A DNA stretch of 64,000 bases from the NCBI GenBank assembly GCA_012839295.1, contig DUNO01000011.1, positions 35,484 through 99,483 on the forward strand, given 5' to 3'. A program made the position numbers and the translations under genes. The DNA comes from Clostridiales bacterium. GTDB lineage: Bacteria; Bacillota; Clostridia; Lachnospirales; Lachnospiraceae. Of this stretch, positions 3,374 to 10,787 are shown piece by piece. Every line of letters starts with the position of its first letter. Within the stretch, counting starts at the first letter, position 1. Below the pieces are notes generated by a model. The model made no database searches, was not told the DNA's origin, and saw nothing but the letters and a program-made list of their open reading frames with translations.

Positions 3374-4363
3374 TCACAACAAGCCGATATGCCTGTAAGC
3401 CAGCTCCGAGGCGACCCTTCCCCTCGGTGTACGCAGGATCAGGCCATTTTGTACAAGGTAGGGCTCATACACCTCTTCTACAGTTCCCGGATCTTCTCCG
3501 ATGGTCGTTGCAATTGCTTCCACCCCTACAGGCCCCCCGCTAAACTTCTCTATCATGGTGACCAGGATGGCACGGTCAATATTATCCAGCCCCAGCTTAT
3601 CCACCTCTAATAAATCAAGGGCAAAGCCTGCAACCTCCTTCGTGATCCTGCCATCATATTTCACCTGGGCAAAATCACGTACCCTCTTTAACAGCCGGTT
3701 TGCCAGGCGCGGAGTTCCTCTCGACCTCCTGGCCAGCTCTGTTGCACCCTCCCCGTCAATTTCCACCTGCAGGACCTCTGCCGACCGGAGGATGATTTCC
3801 TTAAGCTCCTCTACCGTATAAAATTCCAGCCTGTTTACCACGCCAAAACGGTCCCTGAGGGGCGGCGTCAGCATGCCTGCCCTCGTCGTTGCACCGACCA
3901 AGGTAAACTTCGGCAGGTCAATGCGGATGGATTTGGCGGCTGACCCCTTCCCGATGATAATGTCTATCACATAATCCTCCATGGCCGGGTATAATAATTC
4001 CTCCACCTGCCGGTTCAAACGGTGGATCTCATCGACGAACAGCACATCTCCCTCCTGGAGGTTATTCAGGATAGCTGCCATCTCGCCAGGCTTTTCAATG
4101 GCCGGACCCGAGGTAATCTTAATGCTTACCCCCATTTCATTTGCAATAATTCCTGCCAGGGTAGTCTTTCCCAGTCCCGGAGGCCCGAAAAACAACACAT
4201 GGTCCAAGGATTCGTTCCTCTGCTTTGCTGCCTCTATGTAAACCTTTAGATTTTCTTTTACTTTTTCCTGACCGATATAATTGGATAATAATTGGGGTCT
4301 TAAGGAACCCTCAATCTTTTTATCCTCTTCTGTAAAATCGGTAGTGATAATACGCTTTGCCAT
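3374..4363 (-). CDS. ruvB: Holliday junction branch migration DNA helicase RuvB
   Basis: [19 protein letters not shown], Walker [25 protein letters not shown]. Confidence 0.98.
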
Positions 4364-4399
4364 AATATCTCTCCAATTGCATTTTTCTTATATTAACCT

Positions 4400-4470
4400 A
4401 ACAATCATTTGGCTGCAAAGCCACCAGGCCACTCAATGTCGGATGTGAAATATTCTGTATTTCACACTAC
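4400..4470 (-). repeat. Dispersed two-hairpin element, copy 1, overlapping the ruvA stop codon
   Basis: Minus strand TAGTGTGAAATACAGAATATTTCACATCCGACATTGAGTGGCCTGGTGGCTTTGCAGCCAAATGATTGTTAG; matches the 10717-10787 copy. Confidence 0.75.
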
Positions 4471-5072
4471 ACCCTCTTTAAACACATTTTCAAAATTTCC
4501 TCAGAGGTCATATCTTCCTTTATGTCCACCTGGTTCACAATCTTAAGCGCTTCCGAAGCGGAATATCCAAGAACCGTAAGCGCCTGGACAGCCTCTTCCC
4601 GTTTCCCAAAAATTCCTGAGCCTGAAAGCTGTTCTTCCTGATTAATAAAACGTTGCTCAAAAGCAGTCTCCAGCTTAAACTTATCCTTTAATTCAAGTAT
4701 CAGCTTACCTGCCGTTTTATTTCCAACCCCGGGAGCCTTTGCAATTAGCTTCGTATCCTCCGCAAGAACCGCAAAGCGGATATCATCCGCCGAAATCGCG
4801 GAAAGAATCCCCAATGCCCCCTTAGGGCCAATTCCATTTACCGTAATCAACAGCTTAAACATCTCAAGGTCGTCCTTCGTTAAAAAACCAAAGAGTCCAA
4901 TAGCATCCTCCCTGACATGAAGATAGGTATACACCTTGATATCGCTGCCCCTGGAAGGCAATTTCATAATAGAGGAACCCGGCAGATAGACCTCATACCC
5001 GATATTTCCCACCTCTACAACCACATAATTCTCCTTAACTTCCGCCAACTCGCCCTTCAGATAACTAATCAT
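4467..5072 (-). CDS. ruvA: Holliday junction branch migration protein RuvA
   Basis: [28 protein letters not shown]; adjacent to ruvB. Confidence 0.97.
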
Positions 5073-5112
5073 GATACACCTCTATATTTTTATTAAGCTT
5101 TTGTATTAAATT

Positions 5113-5364
5113 TTAGTCAGGCAGCCTCTCAAAGCTCCCTCTCGAAATATTTAACCGTCCCTCCTTCAAGTAATTCAACACCTCAAAGGCCGTAATCCCT
5201 AAGGCTTCCGAAATTTGCAATGCATTGCTGTTCGGATACTCCTTCAGGTACGCCTCAATATCATCAAACTGGTCAGCGTCGATTTGCTTGCAGTCCTCAC
5301 AGGTATAGGCTTTAAACCTTGAACGAAATACTTTTTGGCAATGCCGGCACACATTGGTATACAT
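5113..5364 (-). CDS. Small zinc-ribbon plus helix-turn-helix protein (flagellar-operon/YvyF-like)
   Basis: CRHCQKVF...CEDCKQID followed by an ALQISEALGITAFEVLNYLKEGRL HTH-like segment. Confidence 0.6.
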   Translation of the reverse strand: MYTNVCRHCQKVFRSRFKAYTCEDCKQIDADQFDDIEAYLKEYPNSNALQISEALGITAFEVLNYLKEGRLNISRGSFERLPD

Positions 5365-5442
5365 AGACCAATCCTCCTTCCTAAAGGATGCTCCGCCTCC
5401 CTCTATAAGGAGGATTAACCTCCTTCTTTGTGCTGCCGCAGG

Positions 5443-7917
5443 TTACATTAAGGTCGAAAAAACATTTAAAATCCTTTGGTAAGCTTTGATATGGAAAGGT
5501 CTGTTCTTCCATTCATCATAGGTCACCTCATGGCATTGCTCCATCGTCTTGACCAGATCCTGATGGATGGTCCGGATCGTCTCCTTATCACAGATCCATA
5601 CGCCGCACTCATAGTGCAGGTAGAAGCTGCGGTAATCCATATTGATTGTTCCTACAATACCGCTGTCCTCCGTAATAATCGTCTTGGCATGGATAAACCC
5701 GGGGGAATATTCATAGATCTTGACCCCGGCCTCCAGCAGCTTGCCATAATTATAGTTCGTAAGGATTTTAACATTCTTCTTATCCGGGATAAACGGCGTG
5801 ATAATCCGGACATCAATTCCGCTGACAGCCGCAGTAACCAACGCATCCCGCATATCTTCTTCAATTATAAGGTAAGGTGTTGTAATGTACAATACCTTCT
5901 TGGCATAATATATCATCTGTTTATAGATGTTTTCCACCGGATTTCTCGGATTATTGGCGGGCCCGTCGGAAATCACCTGGCAATACACCTCATTTTCCTC
6001 AAACTGCCTGGTAGGGCGGAATGGATTATAGTCCATTGGAGCCCCGGAACCTGAAACCTCCCACATCTGTAAAAAGGTTACCGTCAGCCCCCATACCGCA
6101 TCCCCTTCGACGCGGATAGCATTATCCTTCCAGGTTCCGAACCGCTGGACCAGGTTTACATACTCATCAGCCAGATTCATGCCTCCCGTAAATCCTACGT
6201 TCCCGTCCACCACAATAATCTTTTGATGGGACCGGAAATTCAGGTACAGCTTATCCGTATACCGGTGGATCGGATTAAATACACGGACCTCCATCCCTTC
6301 ATTTTCAAGGCTTCTCCTAAAGCTGCTCGGCGTGCGCAGCATTCCGCCAAAATCATCATAAAGGAACATGACCCGGACGCCCTCATCCAGCTTCCTCTTG
6401 AGCAGCTCATGCATCCTATCCCATAAAGCCCCTTCCGCCACAATAAAGAAATTAATCAGGACAAATTTCTCAGCCCCTTCAATCTCCTGGAAGATCGCCT
6501 CAAATACATCCTCACCCATGGGATAATAATCCACCTTATTATTCTTAAATAATGGAAAGGAATTATATTCCAGGTATTTCGTCATCCGGCTCTTGGTGGG
6601 ATACCTCTCCGCAAATTGTCTGGTTACCTCCGGGTTATATTCCAGGAATTCGGCGCCCCGATGGAGCTTGACCTGTATTCCATGGTCGATTCTGCTCCTT
6701 CTCCCCTTTCCCCAAAGCATGAACATAATATGGCCGGTAATCGGTAAAGCCGTAATAATGCAAATCCAGCCGATCTTATAGGAGGTATTGCGGTTGTCAT
6801 TGATTAATCCGACAATAACGATGATACTCAGCACCTGGATGGCTGAATAAATATAGATCGTATAGCCTCTGAGCAGGATGGACAGATAGATAATCAGCCC
6901 CATCTGTGCAAGGACCAGGATTCCCACCAGTACAGCCTTAAGAATCCCGCTCAAATTACCTTTGATGGTTCCCTTTACCTCTTCCTTGAACTCCTTTCCT
7001 ATTTCGCGGACAGTTTTCTTATTTATCTTTTCACGTAAATCGTGCAGTGCATTTTCTCGGAGCTTGCCTACCTTCATGGATGGAAAGGCCTTTAATAAGC
7101 GGATATGGTTCCTCAGGGCCTTGATATTCTGGTAGCGCCCGAAGAATTCCTTTAATTTTGCTTCTATTTCCGGCTTTAGCTCCTTCAGCTCGGTTTTACC
7201 GTTTGCTACAATGCTTTTCTGGTTATTTACCCATTCATCAATAGAGCTTCTGGCCTCCGTAAACAGACCCAGCAGCCGTAAATCATCAAATCTGGCCTTC
7301 CAGCCCTCTCCTGTAGCAAATACCTTCTTGGTTCCGAAGTACTCCAGCATATCATTACGCAGTCCGTTAAGCCTGGTAAGGATCTGTTCAAATTTTAAGG
7401 TTGATATTACTGTGGTCGTGAAATCTGCTAAAAGTAAGGGAACCAGTATATAGCCAAGGATTTCTCCCATCCTTCTTGGTATGAGGCCAATGATGGTATT
7501 GATTCCCGGCTGGAAAATACGTATCATCAAAACAGAAAGCACACCCCAGAACAAGGATACAAACAGGCTGATCCGGCCATTGATATTAAGGGGATGCGTA
7601 CTATAATCCCACCATCTGGTGTGGAAAACCAGCTCCATGACCAGTGAGGTAAGAAATTCCAGAGCCGTTGCCAACAGCATTCCCCCAAAAAACACAAACC
7701 ATAAATTGCTTTGTACCTCCCAAAGCACCATATATACCACCAATGCGCCGCAGCCGTAGATCGGAATGACTGGGCCTATCAAAAAGCCTCGGTTAACCAG
7801 GGCTCTCTTTTGGATTGAAACAAGGGTGCTTTCATAAATCCAACCGAAAACGCTATACAAAAAGAATATGTAAAACAGATAGTAGAATTCATCACCTAAT
7901 ATTTTAATACTCCACAT
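5443..7917 (-). CDS. Fusion: N-terminal putative ABC-transporter type IV (CmpB/PF06541-like) membrane domain and C-terminal cardiolipin synthase
   Basis: N-terminus FFLYSVFGWIYESTLVSIQKRALVNRGFLIGPVIPIYGCGA; C-terminus has two HKD motifs (HQKIIVVDGNVGFTGGMN and HAKTIITEDSGIVGTINMDYRS). Confidence 0.9.
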   Translation of the reverse strand: MWSIKILGDEFYYLFYIFFLYSVFGWIYESTLVSIQKRALVNRGFLIGPVIPIYGCGALVVYMVLWEVQSNLWFVFFGGMLLATALEFLTSLVMELVFHTRWWDYSTHPLNINGRISLFVSLFWGVLSVLMIRIFQPGINTIIGLIPRRMGEILGYILVPLLLADFTTTVISTLKFEQILTRLNGLRNDMLEYFGTKKVFATGEGWKARFDDLRLLGLFTEARSSIDEWVNNQKSIVANGKTELKELKPEIEAKLKEFFGRYQNIKALRNHIRLLKAFPSMKVGKLRENALHDLREKINKKTVREIGKEFKEEVKGTIKGNLSGILKAVLVGILVLAQMGLIIYLSILLRGYTIYIYSAIQVLSIIVIVGLINDNRNTSYKIGWICIITALPITGHIMFMLWGKGRRSRIDHGIQVKLHRGAEFLEYNPEVTRQFAERYPTKSRMTKYLEYNSFPLFKNNKVDYYPMGEDVFEAIFQEIEGAEKFVLINFFIVAEGALWDRMHELLKRKLDEGVRVMFLYDDFGGMLRTPSSFRRSLENEGMEVRVFNPIHRYTDKLYLNFRSHQKIIVVDGNVGFTGGMNLADEYVNLVQRFGTWKDNAIRVEGDAVWGLTVTFLQMWEVSGSGAPMDYNPFRPTRQFEENEVYCQVISDGPANNPRNPVENIYKQMIYYAKKVLYITTPYLIIEEDMRDALVTAAVSGIDVRIITPFIPDKKNVKILTNYNYGKLLEAGVKIYEYSPGFIHAKTIITEDSGIVGTINMDYRSFYLHYECGVWICDKETIRTIHQDLVKTMEQCHEVTYDEWKNRPFHIKAYQRILNVFSTLM

Positions 7918-8186
7918 AATGTTATAGCTCCTCCAGATATTGTTCAGATGTATTAATAGTTACCGGTGCCTTCATGCAAGTCTTCCGGGATTGGTTAAAC
8001 ATGCACGGGTATGGTTGGGCCATACCTCCCCACATATATCGTATGATATCACATCATTTTAGAAAATTCAGTAAGTTTTTTCATTAACTTCATTAAAATT
8101 TCATTAGACAACGCCCAAAAACACACTCTTTCCTTACTTTTTATTCTATGATAAAATAAAATCAGATCAAGGGAGGGATCATAGGA

Positions 8187-9317
8187 ATGATAACAAGACA
8201 ATTTACATTGCAGCAGGGACCGGCTTATCCCTTCGAAAGGGAGTATGACCTTAATAAAATTTTATATTTTGATATCGAGACAACCGGCTTCTCCGCCGAA
8301 TCCACCTATCTTTACTTGATCGGCTGCGCCTATTACAGGGACTCCTCCTTCCATATCCTCCAGTGGTTTTCAGAAGACATCAGGGAAGAGGGCGAATTAT
8401 TGGCCGCCTTCTTTGAATTCCTGAGATCCTATGAGGTTCTGGTCCATTACAATGGCACAGGCTTTGATATTCCCTACCTGCAGCGGAAAATAAAATTACT
8501 GGGATTAGATTACTCCTTTGACCATGTGGTGAGCCTGGATATTTATAAAAGGCTGACTCCCTATAAAAAGCTGTTCCAATTAAAAAACTTCAAACTAAAA
8601 ACCATCGAGAAATTTCTGGGCATCCGCCGCCAGGATATGCTGGATGGCGGTGATTTAATCCAGGTCTATCAAAGCTATCTTGGCAAGAAGCACTATGAGG
8701 AGCTGTGGAAAAAGCGGAACCCCGGACTTTCCCTGCCAGCCCTCTCTGAAGCTGAACAGCTGTTACAGCTGCTGCTATTGCATAATTCAGACGACATCCA
8801 GGGTCTGGTCCGCCTGTCCCCCATCCTATATTACGCAGATTTATTTGAAAAACCAATCCGCATCCAGGAAACATACATTAGGGACAGGGAATTCGTCATT
8901 TGCTTTGAAATCACTGCTGACCTTCCTGTCCGCATCACTTACGGCAATGGCTTTGCTCATTTGGACGCCTTTGGAAATACCGCTAATTTAACCATATCTG
9001 TCTATGAGGGCGAATTAAAGTATTTTTACAGCAACTATAAGGATTATTATTATCTTCCTGCGGAGGATTATGCAATCCACAAAAGCATCGCCAGCTATGT
9101 TGACAAGGATTACCGGAAAAAAGCCACTCCTTCTAATTGTTATACCAGAAAGCAAGGCATCTTTGCTCCCCAGCATGAGCCGCTGATCACTCCCTGCTTC
9201 AAGATGAACCATGCTGATAAATTGTCATTTCTGGAAATACATACTGATTTTCTCCTCCAGGAGGAAAACCTGGAACGATATGTAGTACATATGCTGCAGA
9301 ACCTTCTCTCCAGCTAG
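8187..9317 (+). CDS. YprB-like ribonuclease H-like (RNase_H_2) exonuclease domain protein
   Basis: ILYFDIETTGFSAESTYLYLIGCAYY, LVHYNGTGFDIPYLQRK, LLLHNSDDIQGL. Confidence 0.85.
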   Translation: MITRQFTLQQGPAYPFEREYDLNKILYFDIETTGFSAESTYLYLIGCAYYRDSSFHILQWFSEDIREEGELLAAFFEFLRSYEVLVHYNGTGFDIPYLQRKIKLLGLDYSFDHVVSLDIYKRLTPYKKLFQLKNFKLKTIEKFLGIRRQDMLDGGDLIQVYQSYLGKKHYEELWKKRNPGLSLPALSEAEQLLQLLLLHNSDDIQGLVRLSPILYYADLFEKPIRIQETYIRDREFVICFEITADLPVRITYGNGFAHLDAFGNTANLTISVYEGELKYFYSNYKDYYYLPAEDYAIHKSIASYVDKDYRKKATPSNCYTRKQGIFAPQHEPLITPCFKMNHADKLSFLEIHTDFLLQEENLERYVVHMLQNLLSS

Positions 9318-9418
9318 CCCTCTATCTACGAATAAGTTAATGCCCGCAGGATAATTTAAATGCTAATAATTAATTATTTAACATATAATATAATTAATTA
9401 ATCAGCTTGAGGATTATC

Positions 9419-10723
9419 ATGGACATTTATGTAGTACAACCAGGTGATACAATAATCTCCATTGCAGAAAAATTCGGTGTTTCCCTCTATCAATTAATAC
9501 AGGACAATGGGCTTGGAAATTCCTTCCACTTAGCCAATGGCCAGGCTATTGTCATCGTCTATCCTACTAGAACCCATATCGTCGAAGAAGGTGACTCCCT
9601 GCAGTCGATTGCAGAGGCTTATAATACCACATTGCTCCAATTATTAAGAAACAATTCCTTTCTTTCTGATAGAGAATATATTTATCCCGGTGAAACCCTG
9701 GTGATCAGTTATGATACCCGGGGCAAGCTTATAACAAACGGCTATGCTTATCCTTTTATTAACCAGGGCTCACTCATGAAAGTGTTGCCCTATCTTACTT
9801 ATCTGTCTATTTTTAATTACAGGATCATGGATGCCGGTGAAGTAACCAAATACAATGATGATACCCAGCTGATACAAACCGCAATAACCTTTGGTACCAT
9901 ACCGCTCCTGATGATATCCGCCATGTCTCCCCTGGGGGAATCAGATGCAGAAGTCGTATATAAATTACTGATCAACGAAGAGTTTCAAACCCATCTTATT
10001 TCAAATATCCTTGAGATCCTCCGCTCCACAGATTATCATGGCGTCAATATCATGATCAGTACCATGAACGAGGTAAACCAGGAGCTTTATTTTACTTTTT
10101 TAACAAGATTTTCCGACCAGCTATCCCAGGAGGGGTATCTGATTTTTTATACGGTTAATCCCAACCTCCGATATGAAGACAATGAAATTAAATTCGAGAG
10201 GATCGACTATTTAAGGATCAGCCAAAAGATTAACGGCTTTACCTTCTTCCAGTATGCCTGGGGTAAGAAAACGGATCCTCCTTCCCCGGTAAGCTCAGCA
10301 GAATTAATCAACGCCTTCCTGGAATATATCGTTACGGTTATTCCGGCGGAATTAGTCTCCGTCGGAGAACCCCTCATCGGCTATGATTGGGAGCTTCCCT
10401 TTATCCCAAACCGTTCCAGCGTCAACTCCGTTACTATCAATACAGCCATTAAAATTGCTTATGATTCTGCCGCCACCATAGAATTTGATCCCATATCCCA
10501 GACCCCGTTTTTCACCTATCAATTCTCTTTTTCCGCTAAGCCCATCGATCATATCGTATGGTTTATTGATCCCAGAAGCATCAACGCTTTAAATGGCCTG
10601 ATTGATAAATACGGTCTGCAGGGTTCCGGCATCTGGAATATCATGATTTACTATCAGCCGCTGTGGACAATCTTAAATTCACAGTACGAGCTTGTAAAGA
10701 TGATACCTGACCGAATAGTGTGA
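9419..10723 (+). CDS. LysM-domain glycosyl hydrolase family 18-like protein (YaaH/SleL-like)
   Basis: Two LysM repeats (VVQPGDTIISIAEKFGVS; IVEEGDSLQSIAEAYNTT) then a GH18-like barrel; start set at ATG 9419. Confidence 0.85.
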   Translation: MDIYVVQPGDTIISIAEKFGVSLYQLIQDNGLGNSFHLANGQAIVIVYPTRTHIVEEGDSLQSIAEAYNTTLLQLLRNNSFLSDREYIYPGETLVISYDTRGKLITNGYAYPFINQGSLMKVLPYLTYLSIFNYRIMDAGEVTKYNDDTQLIQTAITFGTIPLLMISAMSPLGESDAEVVYKLLINEEFQTHLISNILEILRSTDYHGVNIMISTMNEVNQELYFTFLTRFSDQLSQEGYLIFYTVNPNLRYEDNEIKFERIDYLRISQKINGFTFFQYAWGKKTDPPSPVSSAELINAFLEYIVTVIPAELVSVGEPLIGYDWELPFIPNRSSVNSVTINTAIKIAYDSAATIEFDPISQTPFFTYQFSFSAKPIDHIVWFIDPRSINALNGLIDKYGLQGSGIWNIMIYYQPLWTILNSQYELVKMIPDRIV

Positions 10724-10787
10724 AATGAAGATCATTTCACATCCGACACCCCGTGACCTGACGGTCAAATGATCGTTAGTGTAAAAA
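10717..10787 (+). repeat. Dispersed two-hairpin element, copy 2, overlapping the stop codon of the LysM/GH18 gene
   Basis: TAGTGTGAAATGAAGATCATTTCACATCCGACACCCCGTGACCTGACGGTCAAATGATCGTTAG. Confidence 0.75.

Follow-up and report, generated by a model that had tools for sequence, protein, structure and literature searches.

Two similar sequences, each with two hairpins, stand at the ends of two genes in the 64,000-nucleotide stretch of DNA that was analysed (the window), which raises the question of what kind of element they are and how they came to lie there. The answer developed below is that they are probably copies of a non-autonomous, REP-like palindromic mobile repeat. The first copy (4398..4466, minus strand, 69 nt) lies between ruvA and ruvB in sense orientation relative to both genes, and the second (10719..10779, plus strand, 61 nt) lies 3' of a LysM/GH18 gene, with the next downstream gene convergent. 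Both sequences, picked out in the initial annotation, were located and then matched by a covariance model (69.8 and 88.1 bits, respectively). Their resemblance goes beyond chance, as the pattern of hairpin 1 and linker, with at most two mismatches, gave 62 matches in the genome versus 0 for a reversed control. Both copies had been described as starting at or inside a stop codon. Copy 1 indeed abuts the in-frame TAG stop codon of ruvA (4467..4469, minus strand; ORF 4467-5072). For copy 2 the stop codon is a TGA inside the unit (10721..10723, plus strand), where the LysM/GH18 ORF (9407-10723) ends as ATA GTG TGA, but this copy begins one base before the position claimed and follows a TAG (10716..10718, plus strand) that is not in the frame of the LysM gene.

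Hairpin 1 is formed in copy 1 by TGTGAAATA CAGAA TATTTCACA (4444..4466, minus strand; from the consensus structure and folding) and in copy 2 by TGTGAAATG AAGAT CATTTCACA (10719..10741, plus strand). The hairpin 2 region of copy 1 (4402..4441, minus strand) has the outer helix CGACA/TGATTG, a variant inner stem and an 8-nt insertion, and hairpin 2 of copy 2 reads CGACA ... TGACC TGAC GGTCA ... TGATCG (10744..10775, plus strand). Because of this insertion the comparison of GGCT/AGCC with GACC/GGTC, from which compensatory change had been proposed, is not one of strictly homologous positions, and hairpin 2 had been drawn too short; the longer hairpin nevertheless exists and does covary when all copies are aligned. 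Taken singly the copies are less telling: the whole-fold z-score was only -1.06 for copy 1, no better than shuffles, and -4.77 for copy 2, for which the single-sequence minimum free energy fold favours a rival 3' hairpin over hairpin 2.

The covariance model (R2) was built from 34 distinct units, and the consensus unit is 61 nt long, TGTGAAATGAAGATCATTTCACATCCGACATTGAGTGACCTAACGGTCAAATGTTCGTTAG. Hairpin 1 occupies columns 1-23, and hairpin 2 consists of an outer helix (26-30 with 52-57) and an inner helix (36-40 with 45-49). Covariation was assessed in the genome of the window (6.36 Mb in 82 contigs, 98% complete; the home genome) and in a sister species, a metagenome-assembled genome labelled Herbinix sp. 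Double-change cells exceeded those in shuffles in both, with 26 versus 11 in the home genome and 153 versus 50 in the sister species, which bears out the single-strand structure under selection first proposed from two copies. In the sister species both partners had changed in 15 of 19 pairs, and pairing was kept in 91% of cells; this alignment was fitted to the covariance model and its counts thus lean towards it. Covariation of this strength indicates that the structure is selected, or is needed for spread, and since it is seen between repeat copies inside one genome it fits a folded DNA strand in transposition as well as an RNA element. Pairing of the hairpin 2 loop with the terminal CGTTAG was also considered; it is true of the home consensus, fails in the loops of the sister species and was dropped. 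Rfam gave no gathering match in the window and nothing relevant up to E=1.

A covariance-model search for further genomic copies, as the initial annotation had proposed, found many. The home genome carries about 75-80 copies at 56 sites (79 matches at E<=1, 74 at E<=0.01), and the loci fetched held 77 matches in 56 arrays, i.e., 40 single, 12 double, 3 triple, and 1 quadruple. All 16 multi-unit arrays are head-to-tail direct repeats with a period of usually exactly 61 bp. The sister species has about 60 copies (57 matches at E<=0.01) that form a diverged set of its own. One other genome of the genus (G180) has a single match at E<=0.01, and the remaining 31 of the 34 genomes examined have none at that threshold. 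Across the family, 149 genera were sampled and a single further genome (G097) gave matches; these belong to a sister family in which the first hairpin is the same but the second half differs. Outside the genus, matches to the hairpin 1 pattern were mostly chance palindromes or weak. Spread via viruses was rejected, the pattern having no exact match in viral contigs. Units at different loci are at least 2 bases apart from their nearest relative, so very recent bursts are not indicated. Searches for longer, autonomous copies found no long form: the left-end search returned one truncated copy and the right-end search shortened copies only. The latter are eight home-genome copies (L215-L222) that lack hairpin 1 and retain the inner hairpin 2 and the tail, in several cases immediately 3' of xTAG; their sequence is consistent with deletion between AGTG repeats. 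Five contigs of the home genome terminate within unit arrays (the ends of C7, C15, C18, and C69 and the start of C23). The ends of C7 and C69 flank a single orthologous site in the sister species (L115), and the arrays there are therefore probably longer than assembled.

That the unit has moved is seen from orthologous sites. In the sister species the coding flanks of ruvAB align, with no unit separating the stop codon from the ruvB leader, and the ruvA orthologue ends in TAA where the home genome has the flanking TAG. The orthologue was located for seven more home-genome sites (L154, L158, L162, L163, L166, L174, and L175) in a search that used the home-genome flanks and was not conditioned on the sister species carrying a unit; all seven lack it. 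The clearest empty junctions are L154, L174, and L175, where the block missing at L175 also takes in an element of a second family (see below). At unit sites the sister species mostly has TAA as stop codon, and insertion might convert TAA to TAG, although the control set for this comparison was very small. The eight empty sites show that the unit is mobile, and in the home genome this two-hairpin repeat has reached no fewer than 56 sites. Both species carry units at four or more other sites, in some cases in differing numbers, a share that is biased upward as these sites were drawn from loci chosen for carrying units. The initial annotation was therefore right in part, with mobility, tandem repetition and empty orthologous sites missing from its reading.

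The position of the units relative to genes may be explained in more than one way. Between co-directional genes, as called by a simple script and not taken from curated annotation, units are in sense orientation at 65 of 71 sites (36 sense versus 3 antisense in the home genome, 29 versus 3 in the sister species). In a joint model orientation follows gene direction in the home genome and replication direction (GC skew) in the sister species; when pooled, both contribute (gene direction, p=2e-5; replication direction, p=0.007). Replication strand as the sole cause was found insufficient in the home genome, where the sense bias goes beyond replication (p=1.4e-6), and sufficient in the sister species. 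The concentration at stop codons that had been anticipated is present as a bias, but where the upstream gene is in sense orientation it concerns only some half of the copies: 21 of 45 in the home genome and 15 of 33 in the sister species lie no more than 12 nt from the end of that gene, and the remainder lie elsewhere in intergenic or leader regions. Within gaps between two genes that both run in the direction of the unit, stop proximity was observed 13 times versus 6.3 under a uniform expectation in the home genome (p=0.0013) and 12 versus 4.6 times in the sister species (p=0.0001). Stop codons recur at the flanking TAG (offset 0), at a TGA at unit bases 3-5 (-5) and at a TGA at bases 8-10 (-10), and the stop codon is supplied by the flanking TAG or the unit at 13 sites in the home genome and 8 in the sister species. 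The flanking TAG and the first ten nucleotides of the unit hold stops in all three frames and close any frame within about 4 codons, which would explain why insertion at gene ends is tolerated.

It is possible, although considerably less probable than movement as a REP-like repeat, that the unit serves mainly as an RNA element of the host and owes its spread and persistence to selection on the transcript. Its hairpins, in the 3' UTR or between cistrons, would then stabilise or insulate the mRNA, or affect termination and recycling at the stop codon. The sense bias of the home genome and the proximity to stop codons are in agreement with this, as are the sites common to both species. G-U intermediates also outnumber A-C intermediates (107 versus 79), which points weakly to the strand as written, but this excess also fits a folded top DNA strand. 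On the other hand all eight clearly locatable sites, seven of them from the unbiased search and one at ruvAB, are empty in the sister species, which means that a function tied to these sites is not conserved; moreover, the neighbouring genes appear unrelated and 31 other genomes of the genus do without the unit.

The junctions are marked on both sides. On the left the unit is preceded by xTAG, with T in 45, A in 52, and G in 49 of 55 home-genome cases and purine-rich sequence upstream of the TAG; the tetranucleotide is ATAG in 20, TTAG in 14, CTAG in 4, and GTAG in 3 of the 55. The unit itself ends in TTAG. The right flank repeats the first seven bases of the unit (TRTGAAA): TRTGAA with at most one mismatch was found there in 24 of 53 cases in the home genome and 16 of 46 in the sister species, versus 1.8% of control intergenic [AT]TAG. 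Beyond position +7 the resemblance drops to background, and decayed extra units are therefore not favoured as its general source. At L162, L163 (8572), and L182 the right flank forms a hairpin of its own (GTTGAAAA..TTTTCA type), which may be one more related module. Within arrays the joint reads TTAG|TGTGAAA, the same sequence as the insertion junction, so that one unit can be the target for the next.

Targets of the IS200/IS605 type are set by a left tetranucleotide, and the motif on the right side is unexpected for them. It is conceivable, if unlikely, that site-specific recombination or an RNA-mediated route, and not a Y1 transposase, moves the unit. It would then enter as a circle or transcript of 61 nt, at a core (xTAG|TRTGAAA) identical to the sequence formed when its own ends are joined. 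A two-sided junction motif that ends after +7, exact 61-bp head-to-tail arrays and a home genome in which no Y1 gene was found speak for such a route, but slippage or unequal crossing-over can also lengthen arrays. An equally tentative and broader proposal is that the 61-nt hairpin family spreads by an undescribed mechanism with recognition to the left and to the right of the point of insertion (GRRRWTAG|TRTGAAA, the right side being the start of the unit itself) and that, together with a related modular Lachnospiraceae family that has the first hairpin in common and a ribosome-binding site of its own, it would make up mobile linkers that bridge two cistrons, from the stop codon of one to the start of the next. 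This second family was observed in the home genome (L223-L225, L228) and in G097 (L232-L238) and has no Rfam match. Its first hairpin is that of the 61-mer. Its order is TGTGAAAA..TTTTCACA, then CGCARGTTTGTGC-TTGC-GCAC.., then TGCGCA..TGCGCA, and it ends in a ribosome-binding-site-like sequence directly upstream of the start codon. At L223 and L224 the 61-mer lies exactly at its 5' edge. Finally, that the units are intrinsic terminators alike by chance is highly improbable: they are hairpins located 3' of genes, but they lack a T-run after the hairpin, as had been pointed out from the start, 36 of the 56 home-genome sites lie between co-directional genes, ruvA-ruvB included, and all 61 nt are conserved with a fixed TAG junction.

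A non-autonomous, REP-like mobile repeat thus remains the probable identity of the unit. It is in agreement with the copy number, the arrays, a second species with its own diverged set, the covariation, the empty sites, the orientation, the stop proximity, the junction motif and the parallel with GTAG-REPs (PMC3733652). It accounts less readily for an orientation that tracks genes in the home genome but replication in the sister species, and the sites common to both species are also compatible with retained function. The search for a mobilising enzyme is a further counterpoint. The Y1 transposase family PF01797 is present in 19 of 34 genomes of the genus and has no match in the home genome, where a RAYT query in tblastn also found nothing; intact Y1/IS200-type and RAYT genes of relatives have no unit nearby, and a Y1 transposase linked to the unit was rejected on these grounds. 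A gene may have been missed, as the home genome is 98% complete and its 82 contigs include several that break off within arrays of the unit. A broken RAYT fragment of about 70 amino acids with stops, about 70% identical to the RAYT at L105, was observed in the sister species (L133:2467-2708, C338); the small contig that holds it also carries a unit at 3854. On this reading the folded strand, as DNA, would be recognised by a transposase, probably of the HUH/Y1 type and now lost or undetected, and would insert at xTAG|TRTGAAA; landing on a stop codon would be tolerated through the three-frame stops. Once transcribed, the hairpins would be located in 3' UTRs or intercistronic RNA and may there shield cistrons or keep them apart, a role also proposed for REPs. 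The analysis shows insertion and structure, whereas the transposase, a single-stranded route and possible effects on gene expression are inferred; a host function is plausible.

How the unit relates to known systems depends on the feature compared. BOX, RUP, ERIC, and bcr-type repeats are dispersed, structured intergenic repeats that are transcribed with their neighbours. The unit resembles these and MITEs (listed in PMC3733652) in this respect, but differs, as judged from their descriptions, in structure and TAG junction; in particular it is without the terminal inverted repeats of DDE-type MITEs, its ends TGTGAAAT and CGTTAG not being mutually inverted. Like PATEs derived from IS200/IS605, the unit has hairpins near both ends, no terminal inverted repeats, a fixed short sequence left of the insertion and no clear target duplication. 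Unlike PATEs, its hairpin 1 begins at the first base, its right flank also bears a motif and no Y1 TnpA with matching ends was detected in the home genome. RAYTs, which are related to the IS200/IS605 transposases acting on the lagging-strand template, are believed to mobilise REPs (PMC6006769), and GTAG-REPs lie mainly downstream of coding regions, where they often provide the TAG stop codon (PMC3733652). With GTAG-REPs and REPINs the unit has in common short palindromes whose 5' foot carries an unpaired tetranucleotide of the TAG type, a high copy number, and an intergenic location near gene 3' ends with TAG stops often supplied (PMC3733652; PMC6006769). However, a GTAG-REP is a single palindrome of 20-40 bp with GTAG or GTGG at its 5' foot, whereas the unit has two unlike hairpins in 61 nt, mostly ATAG or TTAG as tag, the TRTGAAA motif on its right side and a Lachnospiraceae host; GTAG-REP genomes encode a RAYT, usually flanked by repeats, and none was found in the home genome; and REPIN/BIME pairs are inverted, whereas unit arrays are all direct. 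Membership is not claimed, because tag, unit size, inverted pairing and RAYT all differ. REP-type repeats are so far mostly known from Proteobacteria and some deeper phyla, and a survey of tagged REPs does not mention Firmicutes or Clostridia (PMC3733652). A high-copy Lachnospiraceae family with clear empty sites, strong covariation and a two-sided junction motif is therefore a clean test system, both for how REP-like repeats move where a RAYT is not found and for whether hairpins at stop codons change gene expression.
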